DNA of 64,000 nt from Methanolobus sp. ZRKC5 (lineage in GTDB: Archaea; Halobacteriota; Methanosarcinia; Methanosarcinales; Methanosarcinaceae): assembly GCF_038446525.1 (NCBI RefSeq), contig NZ_CP151792.1, forward strand, positions 558,001 to 622,000, read 5' to 3'. The stretch's first letter is position 1. The number at the start of each line of letters is the position of its first letter. This document shows, piece by piece, positions 14,049-50,434 of this stretch. The translations under genes were made by a program, and so were the position numbers. The notes under the pieces are model-generated. The model was not told where the DNA came from. It saw only the letters and a list, made by a program, of their open reading frames with translations, and searched no databases.

Positions 14049-15198
14049 GAGAGGATTTCGATATTCCCTCATTTTAGATCATTAAAGTATTCAAACTCAA
14101 TTATATCCTCTCATTTTTTATCATTTTGTTTATTTCTCTTCATTAATCCTTATTTTTAGTATAGCTCCCGCTATCCTAAATTACTCCTTTGGTTTTTAGT
14201 GTCCTCAATTGATGCAGATTAAAACAAAAAGCTGTCATCAACATTTTTGCATTCACTCTTTCTACAGTTGTAACAAGAACCTTTCTGGTTTTAAATATTT
14301 CTTTTGTCACTGCATACACTCTTTCGCAAGGGACTCTTTTCACACTTATTCTTTCATTTCTGAGGATATCCATTATTCCTAAAGGATGTCCTCTTACAGC
14401 TCGTTGCATTGTTGCTGCAAAACCTTTTGCTATTGCTCCAAAATATCCTTTATCTCTATACACCACTTCACCCTTTTCAGACAGATCAACCTGTGAATCG
14501 TGAAGTGATGCAGTTGTTGTCTCAAATCTTCTGATTAGTTCATAATCCTTATCAATAATTGTATGAAGTTTGTATCCAAAGTGAGATTTACCATTTTTCT
14601 TAGTCCAGGTTCCATCTTTGCTTCTTCTTGTTTTCGCATCTTTTCCTCTGAGTACATCTGCTTTTGCATGTCCTGGATCTGAGTGAATAAAAGTTGCATC
14701 CTGGATCATTCCTTTTTTAATCTTCAAACCAAGAGCATCAAGCTGATTCTGCATTTCATCCCACACCGCTTTTTCTTTACCATTGTCGATAATTCTCTTC
14801 CTGAATGACCAGACAGTTGTACTGTCTGGTACATATTCAGGAAATCCCAGGAATTTCCTAAAGGATATCCTGTCAATACACTGCTTTTCAAGCTCAGCAT
14901 CAGAAAGACCATGCCATTGTTGCAGAACAAGCATCTTGAACATTACAATAACATCAGCTTCAGGCCGTCCGCCTGAAGCTGTTCTGTTTATGTACATTGA
15001 CTCCAGAATAGGGCGAAAAGGCTTCCAATCTACTAAATATTCAATTTCAGCAAGCTTATCTCCGACAGATTGGAGACGCTTATATTCTTCATTTAAGGCA
15101 AAATCAGTAAAAGAATCCATAATAGTAAATTTGCTTTGCTATTATTTAAATTTTATTAAATTGTATGAGTATTGATGGTAGTTTATCGAAATCCTCTG
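14049..15198 (-). mobile_element. IS5-family insertion sequence, about 1.15 kb
   Basis: The ends share AGAGGATTTCGATA as an inverted repeat (14050-14063 and 15184-15197), and TA lies outside each end. A full transposase gene is inside. The right end stops only 4 bp before the stop codon of the MtaA-like gene, so the element sits directly downstream of the methyltransferase island. Confidence 0.85.
14176..15120 (-). CDS. IS5-family transposase, intact
   Basis: The protein of 314 residues has the N-terminal region of IS5 transposases (GGRPEADVIVMFKMLVLQQW, with the SDAELEKQCIDRISFRKFLG segment). The DDE residues are IQDATFIHSD, EVVYRDKGYFG and a C-terminal ERVYAVTKEIFKTRKV segment (Y-x2-R-x3-E-like). 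No frameshift or stop is present, so the element may be active. The start MDSFTDFALNEEYKRL is typical of this group. Confidence 0.92.
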   Translation of the reverse strand: MDSFTDFALNEEYKRLQSVGDKLAEIEYLVDWKPFRPILESMYINRTASGGRPEADVIVMFKMLVLQQWHGLSDAELEKQCIDRISFRKFLGFPEYVPDSTTVWSFRKRIIDNGKEKAVWDEMQNQLDALGLKIKKGMIQDATFIHSDPGHAKADVLRGKDAKTRRSKDGTWTKKNGKSHFGYKLHTIIDKDYELIRRFETTTASLHDSQVDLSEKGEVVYRDKGYFGAIAKGFAATMQRAVRGHPLGIMDILRNERISVKRVPCERVYAVTKEIFKTRKVLVTTVERVNAKMLMTAFCFNLHQLRTLKTKGVI

Positions 15199-15202
15199 TA
15201 GT

Positions 15203-16267
15203 CTAAACCACATATTTCAATGTGATGACTCGGGCCATTTTTTCAATATATTCATCCCTTGCCTTGACCATAGCCAGAAGATTCCTCAAAGGCATTTCAG
15301 GAGCTATACCACAGCCAGGAGCAAGTACATCAATATTTGTATCCAAGCATTGGAACGCCTCTTTTCTAACATCTTCTGGTGTCTTTGCATACAGAGTGTC
15401 TGATGTAGAAATATTTCCAATTATTGCTGTATTGTTTCTGTGTGCATAATCAATCACATATTTAAGATCCTTCACATTTTCTTCGATGCTTATAGCACTA
15501 AAACCACACTCAAGTATGTCTGGTATAATACTATCCACTTCCCCACATATGTGAAGTATACTGTGACCTCTTATGCTTTTATTGAACCTGATCAATGCAG
15601 GTTTTATAATTTGCCTGAATGCATCAGGACCTATCAGCTTCGGAGAAGACAGAGCATCTGCGATCACCACTGCATCTGCACCTGAAAGAAGATAGGCATT
15701 GGCACAAATTATGCAGGTATCGATGCATTTTTCGATGATTGTTTTTGCAATTTCAGGTTTCTTTAAAGTCAGCTTCAGAAACAATTTCATCCCGCAAAGA
15801 TAAGAAGCAAGATCAGCAGGACCTTCAATACCTGCAACTAAAGGCACCTGTAATCCCGAATCGTTCTTGAGAAGGGAAATTGCATCCATTACAACAGCTA
15901 TTCTTCCCCGTTCCAGCAGATCAGCGGGTATCTCAAACTCTTCAGGACTTTTCTCAAATGGATGGGTGAGCACTGCTGGTGTTCTTGCCTTTGTGCCTGG
16001 ATCTATCTGACAGCCAAGTGCCTCGCCAATCACCGTCACATCAAATGGAATACGTATGACCTCTAACTTTGCATCCGTGTGTAAGGAAGCTGCTAGTTTT
16101 GCCATTTGTTCCGGATTCCTGTCGGCTTCAGGCCTACAAGCCCCGGAAATGTCCATCAGGTCAAGTATTCCTGCTGTTGTGACCGTGCCTACAAGAGGAG
16201 TATCAACTTTTTTTCCATCAAGTATATCCTGGAATTTTTTTGAGATATTTGATGTTGATTTGCTAAT
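15203..16267 (-). CDS. MtaA/MtbA-like methylcobamide:CoM methyltransferase, AUU start
   Basis: The protein belongs to the uroporphyrinogen decarboxylase (URO-D) fold family and probably moves methyl from a corrinoid protein to coenzyme M. The zinc site is visible as HICGE, with the second Cys in LAPGCGIAPEMP. From the first ATG (16156) the protein has 317 residues and lacks the conserved N-terminal strand. That strand is present upstream in frame (KKFQDILDGKKVDTPLVGTV), but no ATG, GTG or TTG precedes it back to a TAG near 16318. A GGAGG ribosome binding site at 16275-16279 sits 7 nt before an ATT at 16267, which I take as the start (354 codons). It is the last gene of the island and may complete methyl transfer for it. 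Confidence 0.8.
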   Translation of the reverse strand: MSKSTSNISKKFQDILDGKKVDTPLVGTVTTAGILDLMDISGACRPEADRNPEQMAKLAASLHTDAKLEVIRIPFDVTVIGEALGCQIDPGTKARTPAVLTHPFEKSPEEFEIPADLLERGRIAVVMDAISLLKNDSGLQVPLVAGIEGPADLASYLCGMKLFLKLTLKKPEIAKTIIEKCIDTCIICANAYLLSGADAVVIADALSSPKLIGPDAFRQIIKPALIRFNKSIRGHSILHICGEVDSIIPDILECGFSAISIEENVKDLKYVIDYAHRNNTAIIGNISTSDTLYAKTPEDVRKEAFQCLDTNIDVLAPGCGIAPEMPLRNLLAMVKARDEYIEKMARVITLKYVV

Positions 16268-16360
16268 ATAACACCCTCCTTTTAAGCCACATGTAATTCC
16301 GGAATCTGCCTTGTGATCCTAAATGATGTTCTTATGTTCTTCACTTTAATAATGATATGG

Positions 16361-16675
16361 TCATAGGAACTCGATACTGACGCTTCCTGAATCTTTGGCA
16401 AGGTTGCCCGACATGAAACTTGCTTCGATGCAACAGACATGCATCACTGCACAGGGTACAAGACATGTAGAAGAACACCTGGCCTCTTTAGCCTTTTCCA
16501 TTATAAGATTATCTTTTATATCAAAAAGATCCATCATATCTACTTCCAGATGAGATGTCTTTTTGATTTTCTCACATTGAGTATCAATGTCCACAATTAT
16601 CTTTTTACCATCCTTTCTCCCCTTGATGATATGGGTGAATCCGCATATCTTGGAATTGACTTTCACTTCTGTCAT
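16361..16675 (-). CDS. Small Cys-rich protein of the methyltransferase island
   Basis: The protein has 104 residues: MTEVKVNSKICGFTHIIKGR at the start, then a basic and acidic mid part, then a Cys cluster (ARCSSTCLVPCAVMHVCCIE, six Cys within about 20 residues) and a final strand SVSIEFL. The Cys cluster suggests metal or Fe-S binding, or redox handling, but this is inference. I recall similar small proteins next to corrinoid methyltransferase genes in methanogens and acetogens. I cannot name the family with certainty. It lies 15 bp downstream of the activase gene and upstream of the MtaA-like gene, so it belongs to the same operon. Confidence 0.7.
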   Translation of the reverse strand: MTEVKVNSKICGFTHIIKGRKDGKKIIVDIDTQCEKIKKTSHLEVDMMDLFDIKDNLIMEKAKEARCSSTCLVPCAVMHVCCIEASFMSGNLAKDSGSVSIEFL

Positions 16676-16690
16676 TGAGATTCTCCTGGT

Positions 16691-18337
16691 TTATGCCGAA
16701 AGACCTGAAAGTGGTCTTTCGTCCATTATCTTTATTTCCTTGTAGTCAATTGCATGTACCGGACACGCATTTACACATCTCTTGCACGCCGTTCCCAGAC
16801 ATTTCAGGGTATTGTACTCTGCAAAGAGAGCATCATCAGCTTTTATAAATATTGCTTGTTCAGGACATTCTTTTTCACATCTGTGGCACATTATGCATCC
16901 AACCGCCAGTTCTTCAAGAGTGACACCTATGTCCTCTATCACTTCTACCCGACCTGTACCCGTCTCACTGATATCTTTCCGGACTCTTTTCTCAATGACC
17001 GGATCTTCAACGGGATCTGGCAGTTTAGGCAATTTATATACCTTCAAAAGTTTCCGGTATATTTCCATGGACATACCCTCTGTCCAGTATCCTAATTCAC
17101 ATACGTAAAACTTTTTGAAGGTGTCACTGGTTGCCATCATAAGATGATCCGCCTTTATATTTTCTGCTAATTTTATCAACAAATCAAGTTTCACCTTTTC
17201 AAGAACTATATCCCTTGCAAGGGACAAGGACGTGTTTCCAAATTGCACTGTTTTCTTTGTAAAATCCGGACATGATCCTATATTTCTTGCTTTGATAGGA
17301 TCAACATAGGTCCCGGAAGCACCGCTCATATACATGGTTTCAAGGTCTTCATAGGCAATCCCGGATTCATGTATCAGGGTCAACTGAGAAGCCCTTATAG
17401 CACCTATTGCTTTACCTGCTTCTATTATATCCTTTTCTGAAACCTCAATATCGTCACCCAGTATGATCTTCCCGTACTTTAGTTTAGGTGGACTGATTAT
17501 AATCCCTGTTTCGATTGCAAGAGACAATATGGAAATAAGACCGGTGCCTGTGATGCCATCAGGTACGGTATCCGATCCTTCAAGTATCATCCCACTTATC
17601 GGATCTATAAGATGTCCTTTTACAGTTTCCATGTTCTCATCCAGTACAGATATTCTCCAGAAACCATTTTCCAGATTAACATCTGTGATCGCTCCCGGAG
17701 CTGCAAGCATGCCACAACCTATACCCTGTCCTTCTATGGCAGGTCCGGCTGCAGCACTCCCTGTGATGATTCGGCTGCCTATCTTTATGGCCATCTCCGC
17801 GTTCGTTCCATAATCTGTTACAAGAGTTGGTTCTTCCTGTTCGAGAAAATCAGTCTCCACCATCATGGCAAGTGCGTCAGCACCGATCTCATGCTCAATA
17901 GCAGGCGGAACGATAATCTCACAATTCTCAAGGTTTAAAGTTCCATGGAATATATCCATGGCCGGGAATATCCGGCCATCACGTCTTACGTTATCTATGC
18001 CCAGTCTTTTTCGCATGTTTTCCCCTGCATAGGCCAGATCGCGTATCTCCGAATTCTGGAAAAGGGAGAGTTGTATCGGGTTACCACAGACAGCCATCTT
18101 TAATATCTGCGATGGATCTACATTGAATCCGTCAATCATTTTCCCGACAGCATCTATGATGATATTGTGTGCCACATCTTCTCCGATAGATATGGCAAAG
18201 TCAAGATGATCCGTCACATTCCCACCTGGCAACGGATGCTTCATTGTCATTGAAGTCTTAACAATTTCCTTTGTTTCTAGGTCTATCAATTGCGCCCTAA
18301 AGCCGCTGGTTCCCACATCTAATGCTATTCCGTACAT
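16691..18337 (-). CDS. RamA-like corrinoid protein reductive activase
   Basis: The 548-residue protein is an ATP-dependent reductive activator of corrinoid proteins (RACE/RamA type). It returns oxidised Co(II) to the active Co(I) state. An ASKHA-type ATPase fold starts at YGIALDVGTSGFRAQLID and includes TDYGTNAEMAIKIG and GSAAAGPAIEGQGIGCGM. The C-terminus has two ferredoxin-type clusters: CIMCHRCEKECP (about residues 480-491) and CLGTACKRCVNACP (about 510-523). C-terminal clusters are the mark of archaeal RamA; bacterial RACE proteins carry an N-terminal 2Fe-2S domain. The start codon lies one base after the stop of the upstream methyltransferase gene, so the two are probably co-translated. 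It could serve both corrinoid proteins of this window. Confidence 0.93.
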   Translation of the reverse strand: MYGIALDVGTSGFRAQLIDLETKEIVKTSMTMKHPLPGGNVTDHLDFAISIGEDVAHNIIIDAVGKMIDGFNVDPSQILKMAVCGNPIQLSLFQNSEIRDLAYAGENMRKRLGIDNVRRDGRIFPAMDIFHGTLNLENCEIIVPPAIEHEIGADALAMMVETDFLEQEEPTLVTDYGTNAEMAIKIGSRIITGSAAAGPAIEGQGIGCGMLAAPGAITDVNLENGFWRISVLDENMETVKGHLIDPISGMILEGSDTVPDGITGTGLISILSLAIETGIIISPPKLKYGKIILGDDIEVSEKDIIEAGKAIGAIRASQLTLIHESGIAYEDLETMYMSGASGTYVDPIKARNIGSCPDFTKKTVQFGNTSLSLARDIVLEKVKLDLLIKLAENIKADHLMMATSDTFKKFYVCELGYWTEGMSMEIYRKLLKVYKLPKLPDPVEDPVIEKRVRKDISETGTGRVEVIEDIGVTLEELAVGCIMCHRCEKECPEQAIFIKADDALFAEYNTLKCLGTACKRCVNACPVHAIDYKEIKIMDERPLSGLSA

Positions 18338-18338
18338 T

Positions 18339-19463
18339 TTAATTCCCCTGATTAAAATAAGATCTCATTGATTCCCAGAGAATTTCCATCTCTTCCTGAG
18401 GTGTATTCAGTGGTATCTCACATCCGGTGGATAGTATAAATCCCTTATCAGGAGCTGCATCCATACAACTCTTTACTTCGGCAGCGATATTGTCGAACCT
18501 TCCTGAATTGAATGTATAGGGATTGATATTTCCCATCAGGCATATACCTGAATCATTGAAGTCTTTGAAATCCCTGAAACAATATCTTTCACTGCAACCA
18601 ATGTGCTTATGGTTGTGGAGTTTCACGCAATCTACCCCATACTTTTTCCCGAGTGCCTCCACATTTCCGAAGAATAAATTCAAAGCATCGGGTTCAAGAG
18701 CCAGTTCCAGTTCATGGAATGCATGGTTTGCACAGTTATGCGATATTACATAAGCTCCTCTATCCTGTATGTGTGAATATAATTTCTTAGAATACTGAAA
18801 ACCAAATTCCTTTGCCATTTCCAGACTGAAAAGATCAGAAGTGCTGCCGCCGTTCTCAATAAATGCACCGTCTGCGCCTGCATCAAGCATCATATCTGCA
18901 AAGGTTATGCAACTATCAGTAAGGACATCAAGCAGTGCATGAAAATTATCCGGATTCTTCATCATTTCAATGAACATCCTGCTCCCTTCCATTAACTGGG
19001 AAGCAAGCATGAGAGGAGTAAGGAGCGCACCGCTTATGAAAACCTCATCTCCAAGCTCTTTTTTGAGCAAGGATATGGACTCTACAATGGTCTGTACTCT
19101 TTCTGAGCGTTCTATGGCAACCTGATCTATATTCTCATATTCTTTTGCAGACTTTAGAGGAAAACGGACTATTGAAGGATAAGCATCTTTCTTGATGTTT
19201 ATTTTCGCCCCAAAAGCCTCAGCTTCCACTAGCAAACATCCCCATGGAGACATTACATTGTCATGGTGATACATTTCCCTTGCTAATATCTGTGCTCTGG
19301 CAATGCCTTTTGCAGAATAGTAAACATCCTCCATGCTTGCATTCATCTGCTCAAGCACCGCATCACCAGCGCCGAACCACAAATAACCCAGTGGTGTTCT
19401 GTCCACTTCTTTTAATTCAAGAGCGTTGATAAAACGCTCATTTGAAGTCATCTCATCAGGCAT
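18339..19463 (-). CDS. URO-D family methyltransferase (stand-alone)
   Basis: The protein of 374 residues has the URO-D fold, with the start SNERFINALELKEVDRTPLGYLWFG. The zinc ligand motif is VISHNCANHAF, with the second Cys in LSTGCEIPLNTP near the end. It therefore probably activates a thiol or another methyl donor/acceptor for transfer to or from a corrinoid. It is much more divergent than the MtaA-like protein of the same operon, and closer in its ends to the methyltransferase half of the fused protein at 23206-25110. Whether it works on the substrate side or the CoM side is not clear. It lies 12 bp downstream of the chaperonin-like gene. Confidence 0.87.
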   Translation of the reverse strand: MPDEMTSNERFINALELKEVDRTPLGYLWFGAGDAVLEQMNASMEDVYYSAKGIARAQILAREMYHHDNVMSPWGCLLVEAEAFGAKINIKKDAYPSIVRFPLKSAKEYENIDQVAIERSERVQTIVESISLLKKELGDEVFISGALLTPLMLASQLMEGSRMFIEMMKNPDNFHALLDVLTDSCITFADMMLDAGADGAFIENGGSTSDLFSLEMAKEFGFQYSKKLYSHIQDRGAYVISHNCANHAFHELELALEPDALNLFFGNVEALGKKYGVDCVKLHNHKHIGCSERYCFRDFKDFNDSGICLMGNINPYTFNSGRFDNIAAEVKSCMDAAPDKGFILSTGCEIPLNTPQEEMEILWESMRSYFNQGN

Positions 19464-19475
19464 TTAACTCCCCCA

Positions 19476-21110
19476 TCAGGACTTTTTCAATACGATCCTA
19501 TCAATTCTCAACATATTGCTTACAGCCTCGGTAGCCGCGATAATAGCCATTTGTTTAATGCTGAAAGAATCATATACTGGAGGGTTATTGGCAACGACAT
19601 TTCGTGTAAGATCAATTCTGCTGTCGATTCCCTTATTATAGGAATTGAGCATTTTCGTTATCACATCCACTTCATTGAGACCCACGTTTCGTGCGAGTGT
19701 TCTGGGAATCTCTTCAAGGGCGTTTGCATATTCGATAACTGCGAGTTGCTCTTTCCCTTCAATGGTGGAAGAATACTGCCTGAGCATCTGTGAGAGCACA
19801 AATTCGATATCCCCTCCCCCTCTGACAGCAAGAGGATTCTTCAGTATGAATGCAGCATTATTGACTGCATCATCTACTGCTTCCTCGATCTTTTCAAGAC
19901 CATACCTGAAAGGCTCCCATATCATGATCGTGGATATCAGCTGATCACTGACAGAAAGGAAAAGGAAATGCTCCTCGTTTCTTTTTTCGACCTTCGCCTC
20001 ATCGGCAAAACCCAGATCATGAGGGAGTATATCATCCCTGATGGAAAGAATGCTTGCACCTGTTGCCTTTGAGACCATCTCCATATCCCTTATCTTCAGT
20101 TTCTGGAAAAGCAGGATACCATGTTTTGCAAGTGATGCTTCAACAGATTCATCCACATCTCCTTCACAAAATACAAGGTTAGCCCCGGAAGCAATTATCT
20201 TCTGTGACATGGCTTTCAGATTTCGTTCCTGTCCATGGAAGATAAGCCTTGGATCGCCGAGATCATCTATTCTTAGATTGCGCTGGGAATTTATGATCTT
20301 GCTCTCAAATTTCACATTGCCATTAATCATAAGGACGCTTGCATTTTCCAAATGAAAAGGCATGTCAGATCTTGCAGGTCTTTCATCCAGGACCATTCCT
20401 GAAATAGATTCTATAGATGGGGCACCTACCTTTTTTATAACTTTGACATAATCGTTTAGATCTATGTGACCATCACCATAGGTATCCCTGATCTTTGAAA
20501 GTGTCTTCAGAACGATATCAGCTATTATCCGGGCCTGATGGGGTTCAGCCCCTTTACTCAGGCTGGCATTCTCTATGACAGAATGAAGATCACTGTCAGA
20601 ACTTATCCGAATACTCTCATAGTTGAGGATATCGTACACTTTGTTCAGAGCAAGCTGGTATCCTTTTATGATAGTTGTTGGATGCAGGCCATAATCCACG
20701 AGTTTAGCAGCATTCTCGATAAGAGAAGCAGCGATTATCACTGCGGTCTTTGTACCATCACCACATACTCTGTCCATGGACATGGCAAGTTCTTTGAGGG
20801 ATGTGACCACAGGATGTAACACATCGATCTGTTCGATTATGGTCTTTCCGTCACTTGTCAGGTAAACGTCATCTGTAGGACTAATTATTATCTTGCTCGA
20901 TCCACAGGGTCCAAAAGAGGATATAAGTAGATCCTTAATATCCCTGGAAGCATGTAGCATCTCGTATATCAGACCATCTTCTTCAACATCATCCTTGATT
21001 CCAATACGATTGCGCACACTCTGACGCAGAGCATCCATATTATCCAGTGCATTCATAGTGTTCATGTTTCCTGCATTCATATTTCCTGCATATTCCAGTG
21101 AAGTGCTCAT
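19476..21110 (-). CDS. Divergent group II chaperonin (thermosome-like)
   Basis: The protein of 544 residues is full length for a thermosome subunit. ATPase motifs are present but altered compared with the standard thermosome of this window (48815-50434): GPKG becomes GPCG (residues 67-70), LTNDG becomes LTSDG (84-88), and GDGTTSAV becomes GDGTKTAV (117-124). The catalytic Asp region (EEAVDDAVNNAA), the GGGDIE turn and the region EGKEQLAVIEYANALEEIPRTLA are kept. The N-terminus is rich in Met and Asn, and there is no Gly-Met tail. The start ATGA overlaps the stop of the hydantoinase-like gene, which indicates translational coupling. A dedicated folding or assembly machine for the methyltransferase or activase proteins is likely. 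Divergent extra Hsp60 lineages are known in Methanosarcina acetivorans. Confidence 0.88.
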   Translation of the reverse strand: MSTSLEYAGNMNAGNMNTMNALDNMDALRQSVRNRIGIKDDVEEDGLIYEMLHASRDIKDLLISSFGPCGSSKIIISPTDDVYLTSDGKTIIEQIDVLHPVVTSLKELAMSMDRVCGDGTKTAVIIAASLIENAAKLVDYGLHPTTIIKGYQLALNKVYDILNYESIRISSDSDLHSVIENASLSKGAEPHQARIIADIVLKTLSKIRDTYGDGHIDLNDYVKVIKKVGAPSIESISGMVLDERPARSDMPFHLENASVLMINGNVKFESKIINSQRNLRIDDLGDPRLIFHGQERNLKAMSQKIIASGANLVFCEGDVDESVEASLAKHGILLFQKLKIRDMEMVSKATGASILSIRDDILPHDLGFADEAKVEKRNEEHFLFLSVSDQLISTIMIWEPFRYGLEKIEEAVDDAVNNAAFILKNPLAVRGGGDIEFVLSQMLRQYSSTIEGKEQLAVIEYANALEEIPRTLARNVGLNEVDVITKMLNSYNKGIDSRIDLTRNVVANNPPVYDSFSIKQMAIIAATEAVSNMLRIDRIVLKKS

Positions 21111-23041
21111 ATTACCCCCTTAGGGGAACCAACGGCTACCCCTACGATCTTTGTCTCAAGGGGCACTGTTCCAATACTCCCGATATTATTACATTCAAGA
21201 TCGAACCTTACATTATCCATACTTAATCCGTAGCCGGACATATACTCTGAAACTGTGCTGTTGACAAGGGAATTGGCCATGTCAAGAGCACCCTGATAAT
21301 CATCGAACATTTGTCTTCCTTTTTCAGAGAATAACAGATACTGTGAACTGCCCGAGCCTGCTGGCCTTATCAGTACTTCTTCCCTGTAAACCACATTACC
21401 GACAAGGGCACCTACAGCATTACCCACTTCATGGTACTGCGGAAGCCTTATGTCCGCATCAATGAAATATTTCATATCTTTCAAATATGGAGCTACCGGA
21501 GCACCCACCATTACCACGGGGGTCTTTATCGTGAATTTCATTAGTTCTGTGCCGCTCAATATTTTTTCCAGATCTGTTTTCTTCACTTTGTCTGCACAGT
21601 GTGCAATGAGATTGAGTACGATCTCTCTGGCAACATCTTCTTTGAGTTTGGCGCAGAGATCAAAGGGTTCCATAGAAGTGTATTCTGAAAGGATCGAGGC
21701 CCCAAGCATCGATGCACTGGAATCCCATCTTGTATAGGCACCGGTAACATGCAGGACATCGGTCGGGGTGAAGCCCACTTGTTTTACATATCTTTTCTGT
21801 ATGAGCTTTCTCAGGATACCTTCGAACATCAGAGCATGTTTATTTGTCTTAGAGGCAATATCCGATATAGAGGATGGTTCGTCTGTAATTGCATCGAATA
21901 TTTCCATCTCTTCTACCTCAAGTTCAGAGGTTGGCAGGGAATGAGATTTTGCTCCATTGGATATGAAGAATGTTGTTGGCTGGATGATATCGTTCATTAT
22001 GCGACTTGAAATCTTTTCAGCATTCTGCAATTTCCTTACGATGGACGGGAATTCAGTAGCACAAAGACATAGGGGTATGACCCTGTTAGGTCCGATATGC
22101 GCTTTTTCCTTCATCCATACATGACTGTCTCCTCCAATGGCAGAAGTGTTCATTTTAATAGCTTTGACCATTGTATCCCAATCACCGACAACAGCACCGG
22201 AACTGCTGATGGCAGGCATGCCATCAAGGATCATAGAAATATCCGTACTTGTACCTCCAACATCTATGGTCAGGCACTCCTTTAGACCTGCTAGATGTGC
22301 AGCGCCCAGCAGGCTCGCAGCAGGTCCGGAAAAAATGGATTCAACTGGTTTTTTTAGTGCCTCTTCGATCCTGACAAGCGATCCGTCACATCTCATCATC
22401 ATTAAGACCGAATTGATGTTCTTATCCTGCATCACTGACCTTACAGACCTTATGAACTGGTCTATTACCGGAATCAGCTGGGCATTAAGAAGTGCTGTCA
22501 AAGTCCTTTCGTAAGCTCCAAGTTCCATGGAAAGTTCATGTCCGCAAACAACAGGGAGATCTGTCAGCTCCTGGATCATCTCTTTGATCATCAGTTCATG
22601 TTCCGGGTTGCGTACTCCGAAATACGATGATACAGCAAAGGAAGATACCTTGCGTTGATTCATTGTAACAAAATCTTTCACATTCTTCAGGTTGCCCAGT
22701 GGTTCTGCTTCATTTCCATCGGCATCATGACCGCCTTCTATGGAAAGGATATGATCTGTCGGAATTTTTCGGGATATATTATAGCCAATAAGTATGAGAC
22801 CTGCAGGGTACCCTTTATCCTCCAATGTGGTGTTGGTAGCGAGTGTGGTGGATACTGAAGTGAATCTCACATTAGCAAGATATTCGGCTTTAAGGCCATC
22901 AATTGAATTTATTATGCCCTTGATCAGATCAGGGTAAGTAGTAAGCGATTTGTTTGAATCTATTATTGATCCATCTTCAAGATCCATGATTACGGCATCT
23001 GTATATGTGCCGCCAGTATCTATTCCAAGCCCGAGATTCAT
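21107..23041 (-). CDS. Hydantoinase/oxoprolinase A-like ASKHA protein
   Basis: From the ATG at 23041 the protein has about 644 residues. The N-terminal hydantoinase A domain starts NLGLGIDTGGTYTDAVIMDL, and a second phosphate-binding motif TIDVGGTSTDISMILDG follows in the centre. Both are typical of HyuA and of ATP-using activators with the ASKHA fold. A winged-helix-like insertion (AITDEPSSISDIASKTNKHA) lies in the middle. Typical HyuA enzymes open hydantoin or oxoproline rings with ATP and need a HyuB partner. No HyuB gene is here, so a role as ATPase partner of the corrinoid system is possible. GGTGAT 4 nt upstream supports the start; the frame extends upstream to 23119 without family similarity. 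It is translationally coupled to the chaperonin gene. Confidence 0.87.
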   Translation of the reverse strand: MNLGLGIDTGGTYTDAVIMDLEDGSIIDSNKSLTTYPDLIKGIINSIDGLKAEYLANVRFTSVSTTLATNTTLEDKGYPAGLILIGYNISRKIPTDHILSIEGGHDADGNEAEPLGNLKNVKDFVTMNQRKVSSFAVSSYFGVRNPEHELMIKEMIQELTDLPVVCGHELSMELGAYERTLTALLNAQLIPVIDQFIRSVRSVMQDKNINSVLMMMRCDGSLVRIEEALKKPVESIFSGPAASLLGAAHLAGLKECLTIDVGGTSTDISMILDGMPAISSSGAVVGDWDTMVKAIKMNTSAIGGDSHVWMKEKAHIGPNRVIPLCLCATEFPSIVRKLQNAEKISSRIMNDIIQPTTFFISNGAKSHSLPTSELEVEEMEIFDAITDEPSSISDIASKTNKHALMFEGILRKLIQKRYVKQVGFTPTDVLHVTGAYTRWDSSASMLGASILSEYTSMEPFDLCAKLKEDVAREIVLNLIAHCADKVKKTDLEKILSGTELMKFTIKTPVVMVGAPVAPYLKDMKYFIDADIRLPQYHEVGNAVGALVGNVVYREEVLIRPAGSGSSQYLLFSEKGRQMFDDYQGALDMANSLVNSTVSEYMSGYGLSMDNVRFDLECNNIGSIGTVPLETKIVGVAVGSPKGVI

Positions 23042-23170
23042 TGTTATCACCTTTTGTATGGAGGGTTTATGTGGAGGTGGAGTGGTTTGCCTCTTCTGTG
23101 GAGATAGGAGGTTTACCACCCAATGGATATAGACCTCATAAAGTGATTTTTAAATCACGTATGAGAATAA

Positions 23171-23206
23171 AAAAAGGAAAAGCAGGGGGAAGTGATAGTT
23201 CCTGCT
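23171..23206 (-). terminator. Hairpin with T-run inside the operon (attenuator)
   Basis: On the minus strand, AGCAGG (overlapping the stop codon of the fused methyltransferase gene) pairs with CCTGCT after a 14-nt loop, and a T-rich tail follows. It separates the first structural gene from the accessory genes and could lower their expression relative to it. Confidence 0.55.
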
Positions 23207-25110
23207 TATCCGAATATCTTTTTCTGAAGGTCAGGACCCAGTTCCTTTGCTACATCTACCATTGCCTTCACGGTCGAAAGAGGTCCTCCTGGAGGAATCT
23301 CACAACCAGACGTCATTACATACTTGGATTGCAATCCACTCTCCTTGAGTACGGGGAGCACACCTTCAAGCAGATCCTTTGTGTCATCCTTTATCTTCTG
23401 AACACCTGCAGGAGTATTATCCATGAACTCTATCGGATTGAGCTCTCCCATCATACAACATGTATCACCATATTTTGGAATTAGGTCTGCATAGTTCTGT
23501 GAACCCTTGCCTCTTAGCTTTGGATAGTATGCGTAGCTGAACAACTGAGTTCCGAATTTCTTGATCTGTGTGTCAAAGTGTACTGCATCTGCACAGTTGT
23601 GTATCATGTAGGGCTGGTCGTATTTCTTGAATATTGGCAAATGCTGGTCATGTACGAACTTTCCATCGAACTTCCAGTAGTCCTCCTCGCTCATGATCAC
23701 ATTGTTGGACCAGAGGTTATCAATACACAATGCATTACAGGCACTTTCTTCAAAGAACAGTTCAGACACCTGGCAGATGTAATCTGTACATTTCTGGACT
23801 GCTTCAAGTACCACATCAGGATGTGTCTTCATGTCCATCAGGACACGGTCTGCACCCATAAGTTGGGTAAGGGTAAGCAGGGGACCTTCATGGAATCCGA
23901 CAAATGGTGTATCAAGTTCCTTGTTAAGTTTCTCAGTAGCCGCCTTGGAAGCCATTATAAGCTCATAGGCACGAGTACCTTCCTTAACCTCAGGAACTTC
24001 TATACTTTCATATGCCTCAAGGTGTCCTTCGGATGAAGGTGTGTCATCTTCAGGGTACTTGATCTTGCATCCAAAGTCAGCTGATGTTGCAGAAAGGTCG
24101 ATGAGCCCTACGAACATGTCCGTATCCAGATATTTGGATCCCAGGTAAGCACTCTCAACGAACGCATTGATGTCAGTAGCATACTCCTTGTAGTTGACAT
24201 CGGCAAATTTCCTCAAAACTCCACAGGCTAGTGGATATACCGGTAATCTGTCGACCTTTTTATCGCCCAGTGAAGCCAGGGTCCTGTCCATATGGGTCAT
24301 TTCTTCTTTCGTCTTGACAGCTACACTCTCAAAATCTGCAATTATTTGCTTTGCAGTTTCCAGACCTACATCTGTCTTTCCTTTTACCGTCTTTTTAGAC
24401 AGAATCTCTCTGTATTTGACCTTGCCAAGTGAGATTTTCTCCTCGCTCCATCTCTGTTCAGCAGGGGCAAGTTTGCTTACTGCATCCTTTGCCCATTCCG
24501 TAGCTGCAAGGGAATCAGGATGTGTAGAGTCTGCACCAATCTTTTCTGCGAATTCTGGGGAAACAGGTGCTCCTCCTATCATGACTATAAGGGAATCTCT
24601 GATACCTTCCTCCTGCAGCATCTCAATTACCCTTTCCATGTTGGTCATGGTAGTTGTCATTAAGGCACTCATGGAAACCAGGTCTGCTTTCTTCTCCTTC
24701 GCCACTTCAATGAATTTCTCGACTGGCACATCGTGACCCAGATCAATCATATCAAAACCGGATGCGGACATCATTGTCTTGACAAGGTTCTTTCCGATAT
24801 CATGGACATCTCCCTCGATGGTTCCTATAACACCCACGGAACGCTCTGCTCCTGCCTCTACTTTCATATGTGGGGTCAGTATATCCATACCTGCATACAT
24901 GGCACCAGATGCGATGAGCAGGTGTGGCACAAAGGCTTCACCCTTTTCATACTTGTCACTTACAATGATCATTCCTTTTGCAAGTCCGTCCACAATTGCC
25001 TCGTAAGGATCCACTCCGTCTTCAAGGGCTTTTTGTGCAAGTTCTTCTGCAAGGTCGTCGTCACCGTCGACTACAGCTTCCGCTAATTGGTTCAAGATTG
25101 CTGCTTTCAT
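23206..25110 (-). CDS. Fused corrinoid protein and URO-D methyltransferase
   Basis: From the ATG at 25110, with GGAGG 6 nt upstream, the protein has 634 residues. Residues 1-210 form a corrinoid protein of the MtaC/MtbC type. It has a helical cap, then the base-off B12 motif GDVHDIGKNLV (D101, H103, G106), SMSALMTTTM and IGGAPVS. After a linker (about 215-280) comes a URO-D methyltransferase domain with zinc ligands HNCADAV and TSGCEIPPGG. This design matches the MtsD/MtsF/MtsH proteins that use methylated sulfides in Methanosarcina. The substrate here is not proven. It is the first structural gene of the island, preceded by an intergenic region with repeated palindromes, and followed by an intercistronic hairpin. 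Confidence 0.9.
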   Translation of the reverse strand: MKAAILNQLAEAVVDGDDDLAEELAQKALEDGVDPYEAIVDGLAKGMIIVSDKYEKGEAFVPHLLIASGAMYAGMDILTPHMKVEAGAERSVGVIGTIEGDVHDIGKNLVKTMMSASGFDMIDLGHDVPVEKFIEVAKEKKADLVSMSALMTTTMTNMERVIEMLQEEGIRDSLIVMIGGAPVSPEFAEKIGADSTHPDSLAATEWAKDAVSKLAPAEQRWSEEKISLGKVKYREILSKKTVKGKTDVGLETAKQIIADFESVAVKTKEEMTHMDRTLASLGDKKVDRLPVYPLACGVLRKFADVNYKEYATDINAFVESAYLGSKYLDTDMFVGLIDLSATSADFGCKIKYPEDDTPSSEGHLEAYESIEVPEVKEGTRAYELIMASKAATEKLNKELDTPFVGFHEGPLLTLTQLMGADRVLMDMKTHPDVVLEAVQKCTDYICQVSELFFEESACNALCIDNLWSNNVIMSEEDYWKFDGKFVHDQHLPIFKKYDQPYMIHNCADAVHFDTQIKKFGTQLFSYAYYPKLRGKGSQNYADLIPKYGDTCCMMGELNPIEFMDNTPAGVQKIKDDTKDLLEGVLPVLKESGLQSKYVMTSGCEIPPGGPLSTVKAMVDVAKELGPDLQKKIFG

Positions 25111-25460
25111 AATTTTCCTCCAAAAGTTAGATTGGTTTTTACAGTGATCTTTCATTTCTCACTGTTAACAAAGAACAGTATTTTAGTTGAGGTATATATC
25201 ATAACCTCCGGTTATTTATTAACGCCGTTAACATCAAAAACCACACATTATTTTGAGTGGGGTCGTAATCCTATGAATGAACGCCCTATAATTAACGCCG
25301 TTAACAAAGGAACAGAACTCCAATAAGATTAATGACTTTAATCAAATCAATGGCTTTGATCTGATGAATGCAAAAGTAAAACGCATTCATGCAATATATT
25401 TCAAAGTCAAAACAAATAGAATTATTCTGGAGAAAATATCTCCTATATGATTGCCGAATC
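25111..25460 (-). promoter_or_regulatory. Control region of the fused methyltransferase gene
   Basis: This gene-free stretch of 350 bp holds three kinds of signal. A TATA-like string GATATATACC (25191-25200, minus strand) would place transcription start near 25170. The 14-mer TTAACGCCGTTAAC occurs at 25219-25232 and 25292-25305 on the plus strand, with a related GTTAACAAAGAACAG at 25164-25178. The last copy at 25292 also continues into GTTAACAAAGGAACAG. TAACC-TCC-GGTTA lies at 25202-25214. Further upstream, ATGAATGC/GCATTCAT (25364-25390) forms a perfect 8-bp inverted repeat that may end the regulator transcript. All assignments are from pattern only. Confidence 0.6.
25219..25305. promoter_or_regulatory. 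Paired palindromic operator-like sites
   Basis: Two identical copies of TTAACGCCGTTAAC (25219-25232 and 25292-25305) lie 73 bp apart upstream of the TATA-like box. Each is a palindrome with 6-bp arms around one base. The adjacent Msr-like HTH regulator is the obvious candidate to bind them. Confidence 0.6.
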
Positions 25461-26246
25461 TCAGATACCTGTAACTTCTTGTGACATCTTTCTGAAGAAC
25501 TGATACATGTCTTCTCCCCACACCAATGCGTTCATTTCAAAACTCATCATAGCATGATTGTGAAACATGCCGTTCTTATAGAACAAAGTCAATGAGAGGA
25601 ATCTGTCTGTTACTACACTGGATGCAAAACCTATATCGTCTTTGCACACAAAAAGTTCCGTATTTTCCATCCCGAGATAATCCTGCAATTGTTCGAAATA
25701 CTCCGTTTCAAATCTTTCAAACACAGGCTCCGTTATGACGAGTGAAATTCGGACACCTTTTCTGGCAAGTTCAATGTACTTATAGGGATAAGCTGGACTG
25801 AATGAAGAAGAAATTTCCATGATGTATTTTGACTGTACGAGATTTTCAGTGAACCTTTTCGGTAATTCATACATGCGATTAAGTTCCGGCTCAACAACTT
25901 CACAGGAACCCAGTTCTTCTATTCTCTCAAGAAGATATATCGGAATATTTTTAACTTTATGATTTTCCCAGTATTGTTTATTATCTTCGAAGACCATTAA
26001 GATGTGTAAAAGAGGAACCATTTTTTTTACGATCACCTCTCCAAAACTCGAAAGCCTGTAATAATCATTTTCATAAAGTATTATACCCTGATCGATGAGG
26101 ATCTTAATCTGTGTCATCATGGCACTGGAAGTGACATTGAGTGTATTTTTAATCTCATCGATGTTCATAGGTTTTTCTATCAGCAGGATGAGCAGATCTT
26201 TTCTTTTGTCGGATAGAAAGAGAATACCTAACAAAGCTAATTTCAT
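25461..26246 (-). CDS. Msr/FilR1-like winged-helix regulator (DUF1724)
   Basis: The 261-residue protein has an N-terminal winged helix (DLLILLIEKPMNIDEIKNTL, then VTSSAMMTQIKILIDQGII) and a C-terminal DUF1724-type domain (SKYIMEISSSFSPAYPYKYI ... VITEPVFERF). This layout is that of the methyltransferase-specific regulators MsrF, MsrC and MsrG of Methanosarcina, which activate methyl-sulfide methyltransferase genes, and of FilR1. It is encoded directly upstream of the fused corrinoid/methyltransferase gene and overlaps the kinase gene by 4 bp (ATGA), so kinase and regulator are made together. It probably controls the fused gene through the palindromes at 25219-25305. Confidence 0.85.
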   Translation of the reverse strand: MKLALLGILFLSDKRKDLLILLIEKPMNIDEIKNTLNVTSSAMMTQIKILIDQGIILYENDYYRLSSFGEVIVKKMVPLLHILMVFEDNKQYWENHKVKNIPIYLLERIEELGSCEVVEPELNRMYELPKRFTENLVQSKYIMEISSSFSPAYPYKYIELARKGVRISLVITEPVFERFETEYFEQLQDYLGMENTELFVCKDDIGFASSVVTDRFLSLTLFYKNGMFHNHAMMSFEMNALVWGEDMYQFFRKMSQEVTGI

Positions 26247-28795
26247 TTTATCATCTCACGTTTTGACAAATTGTGGGAATCATCTTCCACAATACCCATT
26301 GGAAGCCTTATGTGGAATATAGTTCCTTTACCCTTTTCACTTTCGATCCATATCTCGCCTTTATGTGCAAGGATTATATCCTTACAGATGTACAGACTGG
26401 ATTCAAGTCCCTGATACATTCGACTCAGTGAGTCCTCCACCTGGTAGAATTTCTGGAAGATATGCGGTATAAGGTCTTTCTGTATACCCGGTCCTGTATC
26501 ACTTATCCTCAAGTGTAGATGGTCACCTTCTTCACTTACATCTATGTTTATCCTTCCACCTTCAGGAGTGAATTTGATTGCATTATCTATAAGAATTATC
26601 AATGTTTCCGTTAGTTTGTCCTTATCAGATCTTATTGCCGGCAGCCCATCGGACACATCCACTTCTAAAGTAATTTTTTTCTCATCTATCAGCAGTATCA
26701 GATTCATCACAGCTTCTGATATCAGTTTGTCCACTTGTGTCCTGGAAAAGGTATATTCTATCTTTCCTGCTTGCTCCTGGCTCATATACAGAAGTGAATT
26801 TACCAAGCGTTTTAACCTTGCAGAGTTGAGCAATACGGAATTGATAGCCTTTGCCTGTTGGTCATCAATTGCCTTGATCATCTCATCATCAAGGACACTA
26901 CGCCCTGAGTACTCAGGGCCGTATATCTCTTCCAGCCTTTCTGCAATGAATTCTGTTTTCATCCTGCTGATGGACCTTAGTTCCTCATTTGCCATCTTTA
27001 GTTCATCAGAATATTGCTTTAAGGCATCTTCTATTTGTTTTCTTTGAATGAGGCTCCACATGCCCTGCATCAATAAGGTAAGCTGGCGTAGATCCGATTC
27101 ATTGTATTCCTCTACTTTATTGCCAACACCTGCAACGGCAACTATATGGTCACCATCGATTATCGGGATATTCATGTGCCTTGTAAGTTCCACGTGATCC
27201 CCGGGGTATCCTTTTTTCATAGGATTGGGAAGAGAGTAATCATTTGTTATTATGGGTTCACGCTGCTTTACTGCTTCACCCCACAACCCGGTGGTCTTGA
27301 TAGGATATACGAAATGTTTGTTTTTTATACCACATTCCTTCATGGCACTTTTCGACCAGGAATGCATGATGAGCGCAGTTTCATCAGCATTCATAAATGC
27401 AAGATATCCAAGTGTACTTTCAGTAAGTCTCACAGCTTCTTCCCTTGCAAAATCCGTGATCTCTTTTAAAGAGGCACCGGTCATACTGTTAAGTTTAACA
27501 AGCGCTTCAAGCCTTTCCTCTTCAAGACGACGTTTCCTTTCGGCCCTTTTGCGCTCACGGATGTCTCTGGCGACTGACAAAATGGTTTTTTTCCCGTCAT
27601 AGATTATGAACCGTGCACTGACTTCCAGCGGTATCTTTCTACCATCCTTATGTATCGCCTCTGTCTCATATATCGCTCTTCCATCCGTTTCAATCTCCTT
27701 CATAAGTTTTGATACGCGGTGTACATCTTTTGATGGAATAATGTCTGAAGGATATGCTCTTAACATCTCATTCTTGCTATAACCCAATGTATCTACTACA
27801 GCTTGGTTCACAGCGATTGCTTTCCCATCGAGTTCGCTGATATATATCTGGTCGTTTACATTGTTGAGAATGATCTTGAGTTTTTGTTCAGATTCAAGAG
27901 CGCTGTCTAATACCCTCTTGTTGTTTATTGCGATAGCTGCGAGATTGGCGTTTGCTTTAAGAATATCGAGCTCTTCTTTTGCAGGTTTGTGTGGCTTATG
28001 GAAGTACATTCCGAAAGTCCCAAATATCTCATCATTCGAACTTATTATGGGCTCACAACAACTGGCCCTCAGGCCTGCCTTAGCCGCAAGTTCCTTAAGG
28101 CCTTTCCAGAAAGGATGCTCCATTATGTCTTCTACAACAACCCTTTTCCCTGTGTAAACAGCTGTTGAACAGGAGCCAATGCCGTCACCTATGGGTAGCC
28201 CTTCAATAGCTTTTTTGTAGAAATCTGGAAGATGAGGAGCAATAACATGAATCAGATGTTTCTTTTCCTTGTCCAATAACATGACAAAACTTATTGCTTC
28301 CGGCACAATTTTCCCTGTTGATTTCACCAGACGCATAAGGACCTCATCCAGAGTTGCACCCGAAGCCAGGGATTCAAGAACTTGATTGCGGCAATCAATA
28401 ATTGCTTCCGAGAGCTTTCGCTGACTTATATCCAGGATGATGCCTTCATAATACTGGATATTGCCATCCCCATCCCTTCGAATGATGGTTCTATCATCAA
28501 TGCACCTGGTCTCACCTGATGCTGTCAGTATCCTGTACTCCTGGATGAAATTATCAACATCTGTTTCAGAGTATTCTGTAACTTCTCTACGTACACGTTC
28601 AATGTCATCAGGATGGATAATGTCGTCATGCTTTAATCTACCCGAAAGGAAATCCTCGGGTGAGTATCCAAACTGTCTGACATTCTCTGAGACAAATTCT
28701 ACTGGCCACCCGCTTTCTGGTCTCCATATGAAAATTGTTACAGGGCTGTCATTAATTACTTTTGCAATTTCTGAATTTACGTCGAGCTGTGCCAT
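26243..28795 (-). CDS. MsmS-like PAS-GAF-PAS-GAF sensor kinase
   Basis: The 850-residue protein is soluble. Domains in order: PAS (about 10-130, with EFVSENVRQFGYSPEDFLSG), GAF (about 140-300), PAS (about 305-420), GAF (about 430-600), a helical dimer region and a HATPase domain with N box LIILIDNAIKFTPEGG and G box ISDTGPGIQKDL. The usual SHELRTP histidine box is missing; the corresponding part reads MKTEFIAERLEEIYGPEYSG. The same alternating layout is found in MsmS and RdmS, redox sensors linked to methyl-sulfide genes in Methanosarcina acetivorans. MsmS binds haem by a Cys in its second GAF domain; here that domain has a Cys in AMKECGIKN. It is coupled to the regulator gene by a 4-bp overlap. 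Confidence 0.88.
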   Translation of the reverse strand: MAQLDVNSEIAKVINDSPVTIFIWRPESGWPVEFVSENVRQFGYSPEDFLSGRLKHDDIIHPDDIERVRREVTEYSETDVDNFIQEYRILTASGETRCIDDRTIIRRDGDGNIQYYEGIILDISQRKLSEAIIDCRNQVLESLASGATLDEVLMRLVKSTGKIVPEAISFVMLLDKEKKHLIHVIAPHLPDFYKKAIEGLPIGDGIGSCSTAVYTGKRVVVEDIMEHPFWKGLKELAAKAGLRASCCEPIISSNDEIFGTFGMYFHKPHKPAKEELDILKANANLAAIAINNKRVLDSALESEQKLKIILNNVNDQIYISELDGKAIAVNQAVVDTLGYSKNEMLRAYPSDIIPSKDVHRVSKLMKEIETDGRAIYETEAIHKDGRKIPLEVSARFIIYDGKKTILSVARDIRERKRAERKRRLEEERLEALVKLNSMTGASLKEITDFAREEAVRLTESTLGYLAFMNADETALIMHSWSKSAMKECGIKNKHFVYPIKTTGLWGEAVKQREPIITNDYSLPNPMKKGYPGDHVELTRHMNIPIIDGDHIVAVAGVGNKVEEYNESDLRQLTLLMQGMWSLIQRKQIEDALKQYSDELKMANEELRSISRMKTEFIAERLEEIYGPEYSGRSVLDDEMIKAIDDQQAKAINSVLLNSARLKRLVNSLLYMSQEQAGKIEYTFSRTQVDKLISEAVMNLILLIDEKKITLEVDVSDGLPAIRSDKDKLTETLIILIDNAIKFTPEGGRINIDVSEEGDHLHLRISDTGPGIQKDLIPHIFQKFYQVEDSLSRMYQGLESSLYICKDIILAHKGEIWIESEKGKGTIFHIRLPMGIVEDDSHNLSKREMIK

Positions 28796-48814: not shown

Positions 48815-50434
48815 ATGGCAGGATATGGCAATCAGCCTATAATCATTGTTGATCCAAGTAAACAGCGCACTACAGGAAAAGATGCATTGTCAATGAACAT
48901 CGCTTCTGCAAAAGCAGTTGCAAGTATTGTGAAAACCACCCTTGGTCCTAAAGGTATGGACAAGATGATGGTTAACATTATGGGTGACATAACCCTCACA
49001 AACGATGGTGCAACCATCCTTGATGAAATGGATATCGAACACCCTACTGCAAAAATGATCGTGGAGATCGCCAAAACCCAGGAAAAGATTGCTGGTGACG
49101 GAACAACCAGCGCAGTGGTCATGGCAGGTGCCCTACTTGATAAGGCACAGAAGCTCATAGAGACAGGCGTTCATCCAATAGTTCTTGTTAAAGGTTACAC
49201 GATGGCAACCGAGAAGGCTCTAAGTATTCTCAATGATTATGCCATCACAGTAGATAAGACAGACAGCGAAATGCTTGAGAAAATAGCAAACACCTCCATC
49301 ACAGGGAAAGCTTCAGAGATGGCAGGGGAACAACTTGCAAAGATATGCGTGGATGCTATCTATGCTATCGAATATGAAGGCAAGGTCAATGTTGATGAGG
49401 ACATTGTAATGGTAAAGGAAGTAGGTGGCACAATCCACGATACTGAACTCATTAACGGCATAGCAATTAGAAAAGAGGCACTGCATACCGAAATGCCACG
49501 CCGCATAGAAAATGCTAAGATACTCCTTATTGATACTGATCTCACATTTGCCCAGACAAGTACAAAATCCAAGCTTCTGGTTGATAGTGCTGAGCAGTTA
49601 GCTGATTTCAAGGAGCAGGAAAAAGCAAACTTCATGGAACAGATTCAGAAGATAATTGATACTGGAGCAAATGCAGTATTCTGTTCTAAGAAGATAGATG
49701 ATTATGCACTTCATTTCTTCAAAGAAGCAAATATGTATGCTACAAGGCGTTTAAGGGATGAGGATATGACCGTTCTTTCATATTCAACCGGTGCAACCCT
49801 TGTAAGAAATGTCAACGAGATGACAGCTGATGACCTTGGATATGCTGGACTTATTGAGCAGGAAGATGAGCATGAAGAGAAGACCTACATAAAGGGATTC
49901 AAAGAGGCAAGAACCATGACCATTCTCGTAAAGGGTGGCTCAGAGCATGTCACGGACAATATTGAACGTGTTTTCGATGATGCATTGCACGTAGTAGCGG
50001 CAGTGTATGAAGATGGAAAGATAGTACCTGGTGGTGGCGCATCTGAGATAGAGGTGGCACAGGCATTAAAAACCTATGCAGCATCTGTCGAAGGACGTGA
50101 ACAGCTTGCAATAGTGGCATTTGCAGAAGCTATTGAAGAACTCCCAAGAACTATTGCAGAAAACTGTGGTTTTGATGTTATTGACACACTTATAAACCTG
50201 CGTGCAAAACATGGAACTATGAAAAATGCAGGTCTTGACATTGAGACCGGTGATGTTGTAGATATGCTTGAAAGAGGTATCGTAGACCCACTCAGAGTAA
50301 AGACACAGGCCATCAAATCAGCATCAGAATCAGCAGTATTGGTTCTGCGTGTTGATGACATGCTCCGCGCAAGAGAGCAGGCCATGATGGATGTAGCTCC
50401 AGAGCACAACATCCACAATTACGACATGAGCTGA
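48815..50434 (+). CDS. thsA: Thermosome (group II chaperonin) subunit
   Basis: This is a standard archaeal chaperonin subunit of 539 residues that forms a double-ring ATP-driven folding chamber. All core motifs are intact: TTLGPKGMDKMM, ITLTNDGATIL, AGDGTTSAVV, the catalytic Asp in IERVFDDALHVV, and VPGGGASEIE. The C-terminus ends HNIHNYDMS rather than in a Gly-Met repeat. It is monocistronic, with a strong ribosome binding site and a hairpin terminator. Comparison with the divergent chaperonin at 19476-21110 shows how far the latter has moved. Confidence 0.96.
   Translation: MAGYGNQPIIIVDPSKQRTTGKDALSMNIASAKAVASIVKTTLGPKGMDKMMVNIMGDITLTNDGATILDEMDIEHPTAKMIVEIAKTQEKIAGDGTTSAVVMAGALLDKAQKLIETGVHPIVLVKGYTMATEKALSILNDYAITVDKTDSEMLEKIANTSITGKASEMAGEQLAKICVDAIYAIEYEGKVNVDEDIVMVKEVGGTIHDTELINGIAIRKEALHTEMPRRIENAKILLIDTDLTFAQTSTKSKLLVDSAEQLADFKEQEKANFMEQIQKIIDTGANAVFCSKKIDDYALHFFKEANMYATRRLRDEDMTVLSYSTGATLVRNVNEMTADDLGYAGLIEQEDEHEEKTYIKGFKEARTMTILVKGGSEHVTDNIERVFDDALHVVAAVYEDGKIVPGGGASEIEVAQALKTYAASVEGREQLAIVAFAEAIEELPRTIAENCGFDVIDTLINLRAKHGTMKNAGLDIETGDVVDMLERGIVDPLRVKTQAIKSASESAVLVLRVDDMLRAREQAMMDVAPEHNIHNYDMS

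Follow-up and report, generated by a model that had tools for sequence, protein, structure and literature searches.

Our analyses show that a divergent group II chaperonin of Methanolobus sp. ZRKC5, which we call CHAP, has a strongly supported link to a fused corrinoid/URO-D methyltransferase, and that the co-occurrence of the two genes is effectively perfect. We propose that CHAP is probably a dedicated chaperonin for the neighbouring methyltransferase, MtsD at this locus and MtsF at others, a reading that draws on gene context and sequence comparison. The methyltransferase would then be the client, its folding or corrinoid loading the assisted step, and rings the assembled form of CHAP. Since RamA, the HydA-like protein and the stand-alone URO-D protein are encoded in the same locus, each of them could also be a client.

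CHAP is encoded by an intact open reading frame of 544 amino acids (positions 19476-21110, minus strand) in the stretch of 64,000 nucleotides that we analysed, hereafter the window, which belongs to a single-contig genome of 3.05 Mb. Its assignment rests on the Cpn60_TCP1 profile, on phylogeny and on the signature C116-GDGTK121-T. The match covers the whole profile (PF00118, positions 1-489 of 490, E=3.6e-115), so that CHAP is full-length; a previous interpretation made from the sequence alone had likewise described the overall length as kept. Its scores fall under the thermosome cut-offs, with 336 versus 450 bits for the alpha family, 329 versus 400 for the beta family and 332 versus 671 for TIGR02339. 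Three further group II chaperonins are encoded in the genome, all of ordinary thermosome type. The thermosome subunit of the window (48815-50434, plus strand), an ordinary one by family cut-offs and tree that lies outside the system and served for comparison only, clears both the alpha and beta cut-offs. A scan of genome contigs for CHAP matched three Methanolobus loci, and the family extends to 47 Methanosarcinaceae genomes and at least 10 genera, with orthologs 42-95% identical to CHAP and thermosomes 31-34% identical, leaving a clean gap between the two. The gene is under purifying selection, as indicated by dN/dS values of 0.10-0.14 against three relatives, similar to those of its operon partners.

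Phylogenetic analysis under the LG+C20 model included 44 CHAP sequences, 32 thermosomes and two proteins from the metagenome-assembled genomes (MAGs) G454 and G332, whose affiliation to the Archaeoglobaceae is our inference. All 44 CHAP lie on one side of a branch with support 99, and a branch with support 100 splits CHAP from all sampled thermosomes, those of the same species included. CHAP and the two Archaeoglobaceae proteins are joined with an SH-aLRT value of 100, a grouping in which long branches meet and which rests on synteny and on shared Cys and Lys residues as much as on the tree. Two divergent chaperonins of genome G148, located at its mtsD and mtsF loci, fall inside the CHAP clade. 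The chaperonin genes of this genome comprise five of group II and a single one of group I, the complement reported for Methanosarcina acetivorans (PMC6420498, PMC5220055); it most likely represents that species, and its divergent copies would be Hsp60-4 and Hsp60-5. The sequence-only reading had taken CHAP for a specialised lineage, to be doubted if a tree placed it among ordinary thermosome paralogs in a housekeeping context. On the above identification, CHAP instead forms one clade with Hsp60-4 and Hsp60-5, and its context is not a housekeeping one. We thus rejected a housekeeping thermosome paralog, given a position in the tree outside the thermosomes and a patchy distribution.

The genomic link was surveyed in 185 genomes of the order and in a 392-genome sample of the phylum. 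In the order, both genes occur in 47 genomes, CHAP alone in none, the methyltransferase alone in five and neither in 133 (Fisher 1.1e-38, a value that ignores shared ancestry); with 47 of 185 genomes, CHAP does not have a housekeeping distribution. Presence and absence of the two genes agree in the six genera that hold both kinds of genome. In the five methyltransferase-only genomes, the contig of each methyltransferase copy ends 0-2991 bp further downstream. The only informative exceptions among them are the near-complete G165 and G169, in which four of five contigs break within the CHAP gene, leaving its first 59-75 residues as fragments that share 80-83% identity with the M. acetivorans-type copy, and the fifth, a short contig of G169, stops ahead of it. 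These breaks are the expected assembly collapse of near-identical CHAP copies. We therefore rejected the methyltransferase-without-chaperonin genomes as counter-examples, all of them being cases of contig ends and four contigs breaking inside the chaperonin gene. Of the 34 genomes with the methyltransferase in the phylum sample, all except G165 and G169 were also found to encode CHAP or its distant form (32 genomes). A third outside match (G259, locus L129) was rejected as CHAP because it is an ordinary thermosome with GDGTT. In draft Methanosarcina genomes and MAGs, mts loci are systematically truncated within CHAP copies, and surveys of mtsD and mtsF neighbourhoods may miss genes.

The window locus, entirely on the minus strand, starts with a PAS/GAF sensor histidine kinase (26243-28795), conserved upstream according to domain search and comparison of loci, and a FilR1-family (Msr-like) transcription regulator (25461-26246), conserved upstream of the fused methyltransferase. 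There follow the methyltransferase itself (23206-25155), the proposed client, which combines a corrinoid protein with a URO-D-type methyltransferase of the MtsD/CmtA type (Pfam B12-binding_2, B12-binding and URO-D), and a HydA-like protein with an ASKHA fold, of the hydantoinase/acetone-carboxylase beta family (21107-23119). Downstream of CHAP are a stand-alone URO-D family methyltransferase, similar to MtaA/MtbA and under the family cut-offs (18339-19463), a RamA-type ATP-dependent corrinoid reductive activase (16691-18337; TIGR04270, E=4.7e-228, 758 bits for a cut-off of 500), the small Cys-rich protein DUF6951 (16361-16675) and an MtaA methylcobamide:CoM methyltransferase (15203-16156; NF040654, 402 bits for a cut-off of 400). 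The end of the HydA-like gene, with its stop codon, and the beginning of CHAP share 4 bp (ATGA), as in most Methanolobus, and the URO-D gene begins 12 bp downstream of CHAP and is separated by 1 bp from that of RamA. The fused methyltransferase is 78-80% identical to MtsD-locus proteins of Methanosarcina and about 80% to that of G148 (by inference M. acetivorans). It belongs to the family of MtsD, MtsF and MtsH (CmtA, CmtB and CmtC), in which MtsD prefers dimethyl sulfide and MtsF methanethiol (PMC7374477). An IS transposase gene (14176-15120) lies directly downstream of mtaA and flanks the locus.

In the 58 loci compared, the one partner that stays constant is the fused methyltransferase, whereas RamA, MtaA, URO-D and DUF6951 are variable; CHAP adjoins the methyltransferase, or is a few genes away from it, in nearly every locus examined. 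Methanosarcina and a related genus possess a second locus type, in which a reversed regulator is followed by an MtsF-type methyltransferase, a small ORF and CHAP, and, beyond CHAP, by corrinoid-protein and further methyltransferase-region genes, with HydA more distant. In G148, this type fits the mtsF-mtaCB2 region described as MA4384-MA4396, of which the cluster MA4384(mtsF)-MA4394 responds jointly to HdrED depletion (PMC11619418). The mtsH loci of G148 and G080 (L123 and L124) have no adjoining CHAP, and the mtsD locus of G158 (L130) retains only a CHAP remnant, with an intact copy elsewhere in the genome. Adjacency is thus not required for each methyltransferase gene, and one CHAP copy per genome seems to be enough. 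In the Archaeoglobaceae pair (G454, locus L127; G332, locus L128), an MtsD-type gene is followed 8-12 bp downstream by a CHAP relative, the methyltransferases being 54-57% identical to that of the window and the chaperonins 33-36% identical to CHAP. G332, which is 96% complete, yielded no MCR match, implying that the partnership tracks the methyltransferase and not methanogenesis. We rejected a link to methanogenesis in general for this reason and because Methanolobus lacking the fused methyltransferase are also devoid of CHAP.

The sharing of an operon with RamA and the HydA-like ATPase in many species, together with the 4-bp overlap between HydA and CHAP, is also what would be seen if CHAP acted with these two proteins in corrinoid (re)activation, remodelling a cobalt-oxidised methyltransferase instead of folding it. 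The ASKHA fold of the HydA-like protein includes, among its many structural matches, a weak one to the corrinoid reactivation complex 4c1n, but the best are to acetone carboxylase and hydantoinase ATPases. Moreover, both Archaeoglobaceae loci lack HydA and carry RamA on the other strand, and yet the adjacency of methyltransferase and chaperonin persists. To our knowledge, methylamine systems, which also use RamA, have no chaperonin partner. RamA is the known activator of these systems (PMC7374477). All this makes a reactivation role unlikely.

A distinctive feature of CHAP lies in its nucleotide loop. In an alignment of the 44 Methanosarcinaceae CHAP, the two distant members and 32 thermosomes, Lys121 is a Lys in 46 of 46 sequences (as GDGTK in the 44, and also in both distant members) and a Thr (GDGTT) in 32 of 32 thermosomes, and Cys116, just ahead of the motif, is found in 45 of 46 (43 of the 44 and both distant members), the thermosomes having V or A. 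As judged from this alignment, C-GDGTK-T is the diagnostic signature of the clade, as opposed to (V/A)-GDGTT-(T/S) in thermosomes. Lys121 replaces a residue that we take, by homology with GroEL, to be the phosphate-contacting Thr of the loop. The sequence-only reading had inferred an altered ATP loop from the motifs GPCG, LTSDG and GDGTKTAV. All three exist in the CHAP ORF, and the loop is indeed altered in that the change from GDGTT to GDGTK is fixed in the clade, but the main argument, GPCG, does not hold: the third residue of GPxG in the 44 CHAP is K (21), R (12), C (7), W (2), S (1) or, in one case, another residue, and K, R, S or L in thermosomes. We rejected GPCG as a defining change, its Cys being a species-level variant at a position that varies in both groups. 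The Ser of LTSDG is likewise not fixed (S in 31, N in 12, T in one), and this motif is only partly diagnostic. The differing tail noticed in the same reading corresponds to the missing GGM-type C-terminal tail, and its Met/Asn-rich N-terminal stretch is real, though limited to the closest Methanolobus, other CHAP having unrelated N-termini. That reading had also described the catalytic Asp region as kept, in agreement with the presence of the catalytic pair D87 and D414, the nucleotide-sensing K186 and the Mg-binding D118 in 44 of 44 Methanosarcinaceae CHAP. Since none of these residues is lost in the window protein, nor its GGG loop, we expect it to be capable of ATP hydrolysis, the phosphates facing one more positive charge, and the slow-cycling or scaffold-like chaperonin suggested earlier is not indicated for it; such a nature is plausible only for the Archaeoglobaceae members. 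These keep the Cys and the Lys (CGDGVKTA and CRDGVKTA) and the equivalent of D118, and have Lys at D87, Ser or Asn at D414 and Gly at K186. ATP hydrolysis appears from these predictions to have been lost in that branch and, both catalytic Asp being missing, may be dispensable there.

Rings of CHAP that hydrolyse ATP slowly or not at all might hold the methyltransferase and its partners together as a complex, and two observations agree with such a structural scaffold, namely that the distant members keep the partner gene without equivalents of D87, D414 and K186, and that the Lys in the nucleotide loop is fixed. Nevertheless, all 44 Methanosarcinaceae CHAP retain the hydrolysis residues and an apical domain with a lid, so that we hold this role to be quite unlikely. 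The AlphaFold2 model of CHAP (pLDDT 84.8) matches Mm-cpn and the thermosome with Z about 38 over about 477-500 residues. The predicted fold is a full group II one, with equatorial, intermediate and apical domains, the latter including the lid insertion, plus an additional N-terminal helix (residues 19-36). When pairs are matched for equatorial identity, apical conservation in CHAP exceeds that in thermosomes by 3-11 points in five of five bins, a comparison of non-independent pairs which is suggestive only and would fit a restricted client set.

CHAP copies from the mtsD and mtsF loci of the same genome are 88-97% identical, against 54-55% between MtsD and MtsF, and group by genome in the tree. 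This shows concerted evolution of CHAP within genomes and fits with gene conversion that would keep one interchangeable pool of subunits, which may serve both MtsD and MtsF. Homogenised copies are expected for subunits of one complex and, as archaeal chaperonin rings can be hetero-oligomeric, CHAP might mix into thermosome rings and shift their client range during methylsulfide use. We find this improbable, since an identity of ~32% to thermosomes, a different N-terminus and the missing GGM tail make co-assembly less likely. It is very doubtful that CHAP is a stress or general thermosome paralog merely carried by a mobile methylsulfide-utilisation island, as its patchiness inside genera and the flanking IS transposase might suggest, because passive hitchhiking would leave orphans, of which the 185 genomes contain none, and because the linkage holds across families, varied operon layouts and one MCR-less archaeon.

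If CHAP is indeed the dedicated chaperonin of the fused methyltransferase, it would form a thermosome-like double ring with a built-in lid, whose client-adapted apical domain would bind the two-module chain made up of a helical cap, a B12-binding Rossmann domain and a URO-D barrel. ATP-driven closure of the lid would then let the methyltransferase fold and/or take up its corrinoid, and RamA would reductively activate it after this step. In the Archaeoglobaceae, the chaperonin would at most bind nucleotide and might work, without hydrolysis, as a holdase or as a scaffold for assembly; the missing catalytic Asp speaks against ATP-driven folding being the function of CHAP in all its members. More speculatively, CHAP could represent a client-specific branch of group II chaperonins, dating back at least to the gene pair shared by Methanosarcinaceae and Archaeoglobaceae, that loads or protects the corrinoid of one family of B12 enzymes, with an ATP cycle altered by the Lys loop and independent of hydrolysis in Archaeoglobaceae.

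The usual view of group II chaperonins is that of general folding machines. CHAP shares with the thermosome and Mm-cpn the complete three-domain fold with an apical lid, the catalytic Asp pair, the GGG loop and the sensor Lys, but differs by its low identity (31-34%), its signature, its modelled N-terminal helical extension, the lack of a GGM tail and its non-housekeeping distribution. A precedent is MmoG, a GroEL-like protein from the operons of soluble methane monooxygenase, proposed to be an enzyme-specific chaperonin (PMC9324122). MmoG is likewise a divergent chaperonin whose gene lies with those of one cofactor-containing enzyme, its presumed client; unlike CHAP, it is a bacterial group I relative of unrelated origin without a built-in lid. 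To this our analysis adds a group II chaperonin in a proposed relationship of the same enzyme-specific kind, together with a signature, a distribution and a candidate client. The five-subunit set has been considered unique to M. acetivorans, and its subunits 4 and 5 were placed in a cluster with human CCT6 (PMC6420498). Hsp60-4 and Hsp60-5, known as divergent paralogs, share (by inference from G148) the clade and signature of CHAP and belong to a family of at least 10 genera tied to mts genes. The literature that we searched, which did not cover some key papers, so that an earlier notice is possible, contained neither a chaperonin-methyltransferase link nor a function for Hsp60-4 and Hsp60-5, nor a reason for five subunits in M. 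acetivorans. From our results, methylsulfide methyltransferases appear to account for two of the five; because the divergence of these two subunits tracks specialisation, their use as models of human CCT6 is questionable. CHAP and the methyltransferase offer a genetically testable chaperonin-client pair in a tractable archaeon, a dedicated chaperonin may explain the difficulty of producing active fused methyltransferases, and the Archaeoglobaceae forms constitute a natural test of chaperonin service without ATP hydrolysis.

Several minor observations concern neighbouring genes. The true start of the HydA-like protein is probably an internal ATG (M27); hydantoinase_A models cover only its first half, and its structural model shows an acetone carboxylase beta-like ASKHA fold, in which a stretch at about residues 400-450 resembles a winged helix. 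The Cys run of DUF6951 (CxxxCxxxCxxxxxCC), conserved in orthologs and encoded after RamA, is perhaps a metal or cluster site linked to corrinoid activation. The mtaA frame is open for ~33 codons ahead of the first ATG, GTG or TTG, with an AGGAGG-like site near 16280, and the starts of its orthologs vary too, which would be compatible with a non-canonical start or with start loss. Broken chaperonin copies are found beside mtsF- or mtsD-type loci in G154 (L125), G157 (L095) and G167 (L094), and in G160 and G173 (L083/L084) a divergent chaperonin copy lies upstream of its methyltransferase.
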